Assembly (NCBI RefSeq): GCF_003054445.1
Contig: NC_042507.1
Span: 2,294,001 to 2,358,000, forward strand
Direction: 5' to 3'
Source of the DNA: Pichia kudriavzevii
Lineage: Eukaryota; Ascomycota; Pichiomycetes; Pichiales; Pichiaceae
DNA: 64,000 bases
Position numbers and translations under genes: made by a program. Shown one piece after another: positions 53,362 through 55,509 of this stretch. The notes under the pieces were generated by a model that did no database searches, had not been told where the DNA came from, and saw nothing but the letters and a program-made list of their open reading frames with translations. Position 1 is the first letter of the stretch. Each line of letters opens with the position of its first letter.

Positions 53362-53593
53362 CTCAACTGTCACACTGGTTCAGAACAAGTACTTTTTCCC
53401 TTGGAAATGTTTCTATTTAATCTAATCCGAACAAAAAGTAATAAAAAAAAAAAGCAAATTCAAACTCTACCTTGCCTTGATTCAATACGTTATTTTTGAA
53501 ATTTTCTGTCTTTTTTTTTTTTTTTGCCTCAGTCTATGGAAAATTCATGCTGGAATTTTTTTTTTCATTTTCTTTTGAAATTAAACACTGAGA

Positions 53594-53736
53594 AGTAAAA
53601 AAAATAAAAATAAAAAAAAAAAGAAAAAAAAAAAAGTAAAAAAAAAAGAGAAAAGAAAAAAATAAAAAAAAGTAAAAAAAAGTAAAAAAAAAAAGTAAAA
53701 AAAAGTAGAAAAAAAAGAAAAAAAAACATTTTTTTT
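53594..53736 (+). repeat. A-rich low-complexity tract ((A)nGT-like)
   Basis: About 140 bp of almost pure A on this strand, broken by GT, T and G, preceded by T-tracts at 53512-53525 and 53558-53567. T block then A block forms a loose inverted repeat and is likely nucleosome-free. Confidence 0.8.
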
Positions 53737-53821
53737 TCCAAATTCCTCAATCCATCGCACACAACACTGACAAACGTCGCCTCACAACGCCATCTATGTT
53801 GTCTCTTTGCACGTGCTCTCC

Positions 53822-53865
53822 TCCGGCACCGGCAGCAGAATCCGGCACCGGCGGGTGCGCGCACC
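53822..53865. repeat. GC-rich direct repeat and palindrome upstream of GCN4
   Basis: TCCGGCACCGGC occurs at 53822-53833 and again at 53841-53852. A perfect 12-bp palindrome GGTGCGCGCACC follows at 53854-53865. The stretch is rich in CGG/CCG triplets, the half-site of zinc-cluster factors. Confidence 0.7.
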
Positions 53866-54062
53866 GGTCTAGACCCGCCTGCCCAAATAGGCAACCGCGC
53901 TTGCTGGCTTTATCGGATCTTTTTGCTTTTATCATAGGAGAACCCTAACTCGCCGCGCCAATGAGAAATCGCACCGAGTTTTAACAATACACAGTAGCAA
54001 TTGCCGCGTTCCCCTCCCCCTCTCAGAAATGAGGAAGTTTTAAGAAAAGGTGTGACGAACTC

Positions 54063-54069
54063 TGAGTCA
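54063..54069. promoter_or_regulatory. Gcn4/AP-1 site TGAGTCA upstream of GCN4
   Basis: A perfect bZIP site about 25 bp before the TATA-like element of GCN4. It could let Gcn4 act on its own gene, as is known in other fungi. Inferred from sequence only. Confidence 0.45.
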
Positions 54070-54086
54070 TTTGCGTTTCGCGGGTG

Positions 54087-54096
54087 TTTATTTAAA
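54087..54096 (+). promoter_or_regulatory. TATA-like element of GCN4
   Basis: TTTATTTAAA, about 620 bp before the GCN4 ATG. With a start site 40-100 bp downstream, the mRNA leader would be about 550 nt, similar to the 590 nt of S. cerevisiae GCN4. Confidence 0.4.
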
Positions 54097-54317
54097 GGAG
54101 ACGTTGTGCCGTCAAAGGAACTCAACACTGTCAACGGTTTCACTAGTGGGAAGTTTAATAGTATCTACTTTTATTTCCTTTGAATTTTTTTTGTTTCATC
54201 TTTTATTAAATAACAGGACTTTTAATAACAAACACTTACAGCAACTGCTTCTACAAACAAATCATTTACACTAATACTACGTTTTTGGAACCAAGAGAAA
54301 TATCATATACTCCAGAA

Positions 54318-54329
54318 ATGTCTGCTTAA
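54318..54329 (+). CDS. GCN4 upstream ORF a (3 codons, MSA)
   Basis: ATG TCT GCT TAA, with A at -3. Its size and place (394 nt before the GCN4 ATG) match the reinitiation-permissive uORF1 (MAC) of S. cerevisiae. The sequence after its stop is AT-rich, which in S. cerevisiae favours resumption of scanning. Confidence 0.65.
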   Translation: MSA

Positions 54330-54496
54330 ATCATTTGTTTGATCAAGAATTATATTCATAAAATATTATAAATTAAGTTATCGTTTGTTCCTACCCACGA
54401 TTTTTTTCTAAACATTTGTTCACTATCGAATTAGAAAAAATACTCACTTTAAAAGTCTATTTTTTATCAACCCCTTATTAAAAAAAGTCCTTCAAT

Positions 54497-54508
54497 ATGT
54501 CCCCGTAA
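54497..54508 (+). CDS. GCN4 upstream ORF b (3 codons, MSP)
   Basis: ATG TCC CCG TAA, with A at -3, 215 nt before the GCN4 ATG. It ends in the same CCG-TAA as the inhibitory uORF4 (ATG TTT CCG TAA) of S. cerevisiae. Confidence 0.65.
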   Translation: MSP

Positions 54509-54536
54509 ATTAAATACTATTAAGAAACCGACCATT

Positions 54537-54569
54537 ATGGCGTTCCACTTTTACCCCCCCCTCCTTTAA
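54537..54569 (+). CDS. GCN4 upstream ORF c (10 codons)
   Basis: ATG with A at -3, peptide MAFHFYPPLL, stop at 54567-54569, 142 nt before GCN4. The two prolines near the end may slow the ribosome. It would add a last barrier before GCN4. Confidence 0.55.
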   Translation: MAFHFYPPLL

Positions 54570-54711
54570 CTCATTAATTCAAGAAAAAAAAAATTAATTG
54601 TCACATATTAAAGTCTATCTCTACTATCACTATTATCCACCCTTTATTACAATCTCATTAGAAATTATTACAACAGTCACTGCAACTAATAAATTAACCA
54701 AATTGTCTGAA

Positions 54712-55509
54712 ATGTTACTCGGTGAAAATTTATATGCTACCAACTCCTTGGCATCTCCTTTGGATGTCTTGCCTTCTTCTAATGACGAGTATATTCTCCA
54801 AGAGGCCCCAAGGCTCGAGAATTCCGACTTGTTATTAGAAACTTTGGATTTGAATTTGATGAAAGATGATGGAGCTTCTTCTCCAGTTTCCCCTATTGTC
54901 GACGAACAGCTGACTCCCTTTGTTGTCAATGGTGATGTTTTCGATTCTGTTTTCAAGAATAACGAGTCGCCCCTATCATCGGACTCGTCTGAGTCTTACG
55001 ATTCAGACCTTAACGGCCTGTTTGGTTTGAATGATGGCGTTCCTTGCAAGAGTCTTGATGATGATGACATTTTCAAAGCTCTTGACTTCGATGCTGATTT
55101 GGAAACAAGAAGTAAATCGTCTGGCCCATTGATGGTTACCACAACGTCACCTTCTATTATTATGGAATCGCCAGGCCCATCCAAGAGATCCTACTCCACT
55201 GCGGACTTGGACTCAGGCTCTTCTGATAACAAGCGTCAGCAAACTGCATCTCAAACTAAGGATAAACTAGGATGCACTCCTTATACTAGAAAGCAAAGAT
55301 CTAGTCCTTTGCCTCCTGTTGTTCCAAAGGGTGAAGATAGCGCCTCCTTAAAGAGAGCTAGAAATACCGAAGCTGCTAGAAGAAGTAGAGCAAGAAAGAT
55401 GGAGAGAATGTCCCAGTTGGAGAACAAATGTGAAGGTCTAATCAAGGAAAATGAGTCTTTGAAGGCTCAACTAGAACATTTAAAGAAGTTGCTAGATTCC
55501 AAAGTTTGA
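54712..55509 (+). CDS. GCN4: bZIP activator of amino-acid biosynthesis Gcn4
   Basis: 265 residues from the ATG at 54712; the frame upstream opens only through TTG. The bZIP at the C-terminus has the basic region [18 protein letters not shown], identical in its core to S. cerevisiae, and a leucine zipper spaced [20 protein letters not shown]. Just before it, [10 protein letters not shown] matches the yeast YTRKQRSIPL. The N-terminal half is acidic with hydrophobic clusters ([13 protein letters not shown]), the activation domain; LTPF could serve as a Cdc4-type phosphodegron. It activates amino-acid genes on starvation. The short-ORF leader listed separately suggests translational control. Confidence 0.97.

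Follow-up and report, generated by a model that had tools for sequence, protein, structure and literature searches.

The transcript leader of GCN4 in the yeast Pichia kudriavzevii, which by prediction is some 560 nt long, poor in G and of ordinary weak folding, probably carries a reinitiation switch of the GCN4 type with three short upstream open reading frames (uORFs). This reading is well supported because several kinds of evidence bear on it: the identity of the gene, the form and the spacing of the uORFs, the low G content of the leader and its lack of unusual folds, and the presence in the same genome of Gcn2 and of the Ser51 site of eIF2-alpha. The DNA analysed here, which we call the window, is a stretch of 64,000 nucleotides (bases 2294001–2358000 of contig 2 of the 10.79 Mb, five-contig P. 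kudriavzevii genome), and all coordinates below refer to it unless a locus is named. The original prediction, which had described a simplified version of the Saccharomyces cerevisiae switch, was right in kind on the grounds of identity, form, spacing and Gcn2/Ser51, while its mapping of the individual uORFs needs revision. The features on which the argument draws are the following.

54063..54069, no strand assigned: TGAGTCA, a perfect Gcn4-type response element (GCRE) and possible autoregulation site (pattern scan)
54089..54095, + strand: TATA-like element TATTTAA (pattern scan)
54154..54711, + strand: predicted 5' leader, about 558 nt, its start set at a sharp fall in G content
54318..54329, + strand: first uORF, MSA (ATG TCT GCT TAA), the proposed reinitiation-permissive equivalent of uORF1 (sequence scan)
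54330..54341, + strand: AU-rich 12 bases after the stop of the first uORF, 9 of 12 being A or T (base count)
54472..54492, + strand: 21-base block CCCTTATTAAAAAAAGTCCTT, 19 of 21 bases identical to a provisional S. cerevisiae leader sequence between uORF2 and uORF3 (sequence comparison)
54497..54508, + strand: second uORF, MSP (ATG TCC CCG TAA), proposed to be non-permissive and uORF3-like by position (sequence scan)
54537..54569, + strand: third uORF, MAFHFYPPLL, 10 codons with a TAA stop, at the position of uORF4 (sequence scan)
54694..54709, + strand: TTAACCAAATTGTCTG, adjoining the GCN4 start, 14 of 16 bases identical to a stretch of the provisional S. cerevisiae leader and weak alone (sequence comparison)
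54712..55509, + strand: GCN4 coding sequence, a bZIP protein of 265 aa (domain, PDB and protein-name matches, alignment)

The main open reading frame is GCN4, the gene of a Gcn4/Cpc1-type bZIP activator. Its product matches GCN4 chains of the PDB (best E 6.7e-15), is 99% identical over its full length to "General control protein GCN4 [Pichia kudriavzevii]", and shares a nearly invariant basic region with its relatives in alignment A1, whose 19 sequences are the window's protein and 18 relatives chosen among the 120 matches listed of 191. A comparison of this alignment with viral and genome contig collections found no relative, and a distant blastn search of the leader against plasmids returned five records with short matches only.

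Upstream of the coding sequence, G content drops from 24% before to 7.5% after position 54154, the strongest single composition step within 53780–54711 and one as sharp as which was seen in none of 500 shuffles. The step lies about 65 nt downstream of the TATA-like element, and about 65 nt is a usual distance in yeast from a TATA element to the start of the transcript. From this step we infer a transcript start near 54154, which would place all three uORFs inside the GCN4 mRNA. The predicted folding of 54150–54317 and of 54150–54711 showed no excess over shuffles.

Direct reading and a script scan agree that 54087–54711 holds exactly three ATGs, at 54318, 54497 and 54537, and so bear out the earlier statement that the stretch from the TATA-like element to the start of GCN4 has no more than three; the three frames that had been read from them (MSA, MSP ending in CCG-TAA, and a proline-containing frame of 10 codons) are likewise as described. 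The third carries Pro-Pro inside and ends in Leu-Leu; it is neither a CCG-stop nor a three-codon ORF. The frames, of 3, 3 and 10 codons, do not overlap one another and none overlaps the GCN4 ORF; MSP and the third uORF both have A at position -3 of their ATG, and 11 of the 12 bases 3' of the MSP uORF are A or T. Within the third uORF there is a run of eight Cs (54554–54561), in which one C more or less would give 13 or 19 codons, so that this uORF would remain short if slippage occurred. Two further short ATG ORFs, at 53961 and 54029, lie upstream of the TATA-like element.

The spacing of these elements is what would be expected of a switch that responds to the level of ternary complex, for which some 150–200 nt after the first uORF and then some 140 nt before the main start are anticipated: MSP begins 167 nt, and the 10-codon uORF 207 nt, after the stop of the first uORF, and the stop of the 10-codon uORF lies 142 nt short of the GCN4 ATG. 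For S. cerevisiae we relied on a provisional leader sequence, set down after the window had been read and so open to bias; in it uORF1 is followed at 173 nt by uORF3 and at 198 nt by uORF4, with 139 nt from uORF4 to GCN4. By these distances, measured against the provisional leader, MSP would occupy the position of uORF3 and the 10-codon ORF that of uORF4, with uORF2 absent, and the layout appears better described as a uORF1, a uORF3-like element and something at the uORF4 position, without a uORF2. The original prediction equated MSP with uORF4; its distance (167 vs 173 nt) would fit uORF3 of the provisional leader better, and its 3' flank is AU-rich. The wider claim that sizes, spacing and codon endings all match S. 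cerevisiae is sustained for the spacing, the three-codon form and the CCG-TAA ending, but not for the first uORF, whose last codon is GCT (Ala) rather than Cys, the permissive trait of the S. cerevisiae type. One-to-one orthology of the uORFs is ambiguous because the sequence surrounding MSP, TTCAAnATGTnnCCGTAA, is also similar to uORF4 of the provisional leader, at 15 of 18 bases.

As to the provisional letters themselves, reading through after uORF4 gives 21 codons between stops, which fits the 22 additional codons of a review if the read-through stop is counted. The composition of the provisional leader upstream of uORF2 departs from the percentages that the available part of PMC4027193 gives for a 73-nt segment of unplaced ends, and this mismatch counts against full trust in the letters. 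Among the matches listed, judged in part by title, pieces of the provisional S. cerevisiae leader led to no text on GCN4 and to one unrelated primer; the search also took in PMC10359597, PMC5389480 and PMC10945734.

The apparatus that such a switch would use is encoded in the genome, which contains a Gcn2-like ORF of 1718 aa with RWD, protein kinase, histidyl-tRNA-synthetase and anticodon-binding domains, as well as eIF2-alpha with LLSELSRRRIRS, the Ser51 site (residue 52 when the Met is counted). In the mechanism that we propose, ribosomes would translate the three-codon MSA, and a fraction of the 40S subunits would stay on the mRNA and scan on. With amino acids plentiful, these subunits would regain the eIF2 ternary complex within about 170–210 nt and translate MSP or the 10-codon ORF, after which the ribosomes would mostly leave the mRNA. 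Phosphorylation of eIF2-alpha by Gcn2 would make ternary complex scarce, and more 40S subunits would then pass both inhibitory ORFs and reach the GCN4 start. The permissiveness of MSA is assumed, and the inhibition by MSP and the 10-codon ORF and the response to starvation are likewise predictions. A toy scanning model gave a maximal GCN4 initiation of 0.22 here and 0.21 with the S. cerevisiae spacing, as an illustration and not as evidence.

The most serious competitor to reinitiation is a mode like that of Candida albicans, in which one inhibitory uORF, either MSP or the 10-codon ORF, would suffice and would be bypassed by leaky scanning once eIF2-alpha is phosphorylated, with a minor role for the first uORF and no reinitiation. 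The GCN4 gene of C. albicans, which likewise has three uORFs, is reported in the accessible part of PMC5972666 to work in this way, and the first uORF here offers some encouragement, having no Cys codon and, in the region 5' of it, no fold stronger than in shuffles (z 0.22) and no recognised 5' enhancer hairpin. In S. cerevisiae, uORF1 has a structured 5' enhancer that includes the RPE ii stem and the RPE iv hairpin (PMC3131280). Against such a mode, the distance from the first uORF to the inhibitory ORFs and the three-codon form match reinitiation systems (for S. cerevisiae, by the provisional leader), and the A at -3 of the inhibitory ORFs favours initiation over bypass. The spacing and the -3 A that the two inhibitory ATGs share thus favour reinitiation over leaky scanning, without settling the matter firmly, and we consider the C. 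albicans-like mode unlikely, if deserving of attention.

Far less probable is that the three ORFs are incidental ATG-stop units of an AT-rich promoter and leader, with no regulatory role. Short ORFs are common at such a composition, as the two upstream of the TATA-like element illustrate, and the number of ATGs is in itself weak evidence, since dinucleotide shuffling of the 625-base leader (20,000 rounds, 5.5 ATGs on average) gave three or fewer in 14% of cases, and in 25% of 5,000 rounds when the leader was taken to begin at 54150. The form of the ORFs is another matter, and it argues against accident: of the 20,000 shuffles, 3.8% had at least two three-codon ORFs, 0.16% had one or more three-codon ORFs ending in CCG and a stop of any kind, 0.015% had at least two ATGs, all short and including a three-codon CCG-stop ORF, and none had the full uORF pattern of the leader. 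Orthologous genes are, moreover, known from the literature, as far as the available parts of it go, to be regulated by uORFs.

Genome counts bear on the same point. The unit ATGNNNCCGTAA occurs 36 times on both strands of the 10.79 Mb (reversed control, 56), about 0.001 being expected per 625-base strand, and each site was examined with 1.5 kb of flank on either side. Open frames of at least 100 aa, on either strand, enclose 26 of the 36; eight of the remaining ten have a same-strand downstream ORF of at least 100 aa (L013, L017, L020, L023, which is GCN4, L024, L027, L031 and L039, the ORF of the last overlapping a longer antisense ORF), and two (L022 and L033) have none. Five of these ORFs, those of GCN4, L013, L020, L024 and L027, have the unit outside coding frames and within 300 nt upstream, so that ATGNNNCCGTAA alone is not unique to GCN4, a point in favour of accident. 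In the seven non-GCN4 loci, 4–18 ATGs occur over the 650 nt that precede the ORF, vs 3 for GCN4, in stretches that may include neighbouring genes; GCN4 also has the fewest upstream ATGs (3 vs 6–17) when compared across the 11 ORFs of the window that have a complete 625 nt of upstream DNA, these stretches not being mapped leaders. Of the Pro codons used in 31 window ORFs, CCG is the least frequent (63 of 608). Shuffles and genome counts together led us to reject chance as a full explanation of the uORF pattern.

Two of the other loci are of interest in their own right. At L022, positions 1498–1512 hold a 15-mer, AAGATGTTTCCGTAA, that agrees in every base with uORF4 and its context in the provisional S. 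cerevisiae leader; no ORF of 100 aa and no Rfam match was found in the surrounding 3 kb. At L017, positions 1500–1560 hold two Pro-ending three-codon ORFs (MFP and MTP), at distances of 649 and 602 nt from a downstream ORF whose product, judged by eye, resembles an RNA-binding protein, and these are probably too far upstream to sit in the leader of that ORF.

Equally improbable is a main transcript that begins within the leader, with the TATAAAT at 54367 as one possible source, and so lacks the first uORF, with control mainly transcriptional through the gene's own GCRE: the TATAAAT and the GCRE at 54063 are indeed there, but TATA-like words are frequent in AT-rich DNA (three in this intergenic stretch), and the strongest composition step, matched by no shuffle, lies at 54154.

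Alongside the translational switch that we favour, the promoter suggests a transcriptional layer. TGAGTCA at 54063, which precedes the TATA-like element by about 20 bases, is one of six occurrences in the window of TGA(C/G)TCA, the GCRE consensus (PMC5487733), and its place in the promoter suggests that P. kudriavzevii GCN4 activates its own transcription, which makes autoregulation a reasonable prediction. According to the available part of the same paper, Neurospora crassa cpc-1, Aspergillus nidulans cpcA and C. albicans GCN4 appear to be autoregulated and S. cerevisiae GCN4 does not (PMC5487733). The intergenic DNA has two other marked features: between the Rrp15-like gene and GCN4, some 140 bases (53593–53735) are nearly pure A, interrupted by GTA and single G or T, and may perhaps form a nucleosome-excluding tract, and at 53822–53880 a short GC-rich island stands in the otherwise AT-rich promoter of GCN4 and contains a direct repeat of 12 bases, TCCGGCACCGGC, at 53822 and 53841.

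The leader contains one further candidate element, the block CCCTTATTAAAAAAAGTCCTT, which lies directly 5' of the CCG-TAA uORF at -240 from the GCN4 ATG, its counterpart in the provisional S. cerevisiae leader being at -258. In a scan of 550 chunks of 625 nt, in which its own chunk was counted and L001 and L023, copies of the GCN4 place, were left out, the block was the best match at 30.1 bits; the next three reached 28.8, 28.8 and 28.3, two of them through the very word used to fetch their loci. Shuffles of the provisional leader (n=200) attained the score of the block in 2% of cases ungapped and 6% gapped, a simple expectation being 0.004. With up to one mismatch allowed, the block occurs just once in the genome, the other match, on contig 3, having two mismatches; when two mismatches are allowed, the block and its reversed control have two matches each. 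That the block is a primary-sequence element kept across deep yeast divergence is therefore a tentative suggestion, more doubtful than otherwise, and we treat it as a lead only, because the S. cerevisiae letters are provisional and possibly biased, and one check of their composition did not agree. As a candidate role, the block could correspond to the sequence downstream of S. cerevisiae uORF2 that has been reported to inhibit reinitiation; alternatively, it could belong to the Pub1-dependent stabilizer element, which protects GCN4 mRNA against degradation. If the block were truly common to both yeasts, it would point to a cis-element that merits testing, in a leader that is among the best studied in biology.

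With regard to earlier work, an alignment of the GCN4 upstream regions of 18 fungal species reported the full set of four uORFs in species up to Ashbya, Kluyveromyces lactis being the exception, and uORFs 1, 2 and 4 as far as Yarrowia (PMC1964767), and at least three uORFs have been reported before GCN4 in all hemiascomycetes (PMC4027193). As far as the available parts of these papers go, conservation of the GCN4 uORFs across hemiascomycetes has been published since 2007, and the switch of P. kudriavzevii is not new in kind. Among the matches listed, judged by title and the start of the abstract, we found no description of the GCN4 uORFs of P. kudriavzevii or of Pichiaceae, and the word "uORF" is absent from the accessible main text of a P. 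kudriavzevii paper (PMC12441098). The gene is a good new example of a known switch rather than a surprise, and its novelty is modest. If our reading is true, it places in the Pichiaceae a GCN4 reinitiation switch with a CCG-stop inhibitory uORF, and the missing uORF2, together with a longer frame containing Pro-Pro where uORF4 would lie, would provide a small, naturally occurring variant in which to ask what the switch cannot do without. Because fermentation is among the uses of P. kudriavzevii, a short starvation-responsive leader could also serve as a practical control part.

Three known systems help to place this leader. Neurospora crassa cpc-1, with two uORFs, is alike in that a permissive uORF1 of three to six codons precedes an inhibitory uORF; it is unlike in that uORF2 has 35–70 codons and the main reading frame stays open for a long way upstream, as described in the available part of PMC5487733, whereas in P. 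kudriavzevii an in-frame stop 39 codons upstream of the GCN4 ATG leaves no cpc-1-like in-frame extension. The C. albicans gene shares the number of three uORFs and, with its reported autoregulation (PMC5487733), a counterpart to the GCRE found here, but its uORF3 alone is described as sufficient, by leaky scanning (PMC5972666), the comparison resting on the description in the accessible part of that source. In S. cerevisiae, uORF1 and uORF2 end in Cys codons and uORF3 and uORF4 in CCG, and uORF1 needs an AU-rich 3' flank, as the same partial source reports (PMC5972666). P. kudriavzevii differs from S. cerevisiae in that it has no uORF2, in that its first uORF ends in Ala and not in Cys, in that its third uORF has 10 codons, no CCG-stop and a Leu-Leu rather than a Pro ending, in that MSP has an AU-rich flank whereas uORF4 of the provisional leader is followed by CGGTTACC, and in that its promoter carries a GCRE while S. 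cerevisiae GCN4 is described as free of autoregulation (PMC5487733, available part). The two have in common an orthologous gene, Gcn2 and Ser51 of eIF2-alpha, a three-codon first uORF with an AU-rich 3' flank, a three-codon CCG-stop uORF and, by the provisional S. cerevisiae letters, putatively inhibitory uORFs that begin 170–210 nt after uORF1 and end about 140 nt before GCN4.
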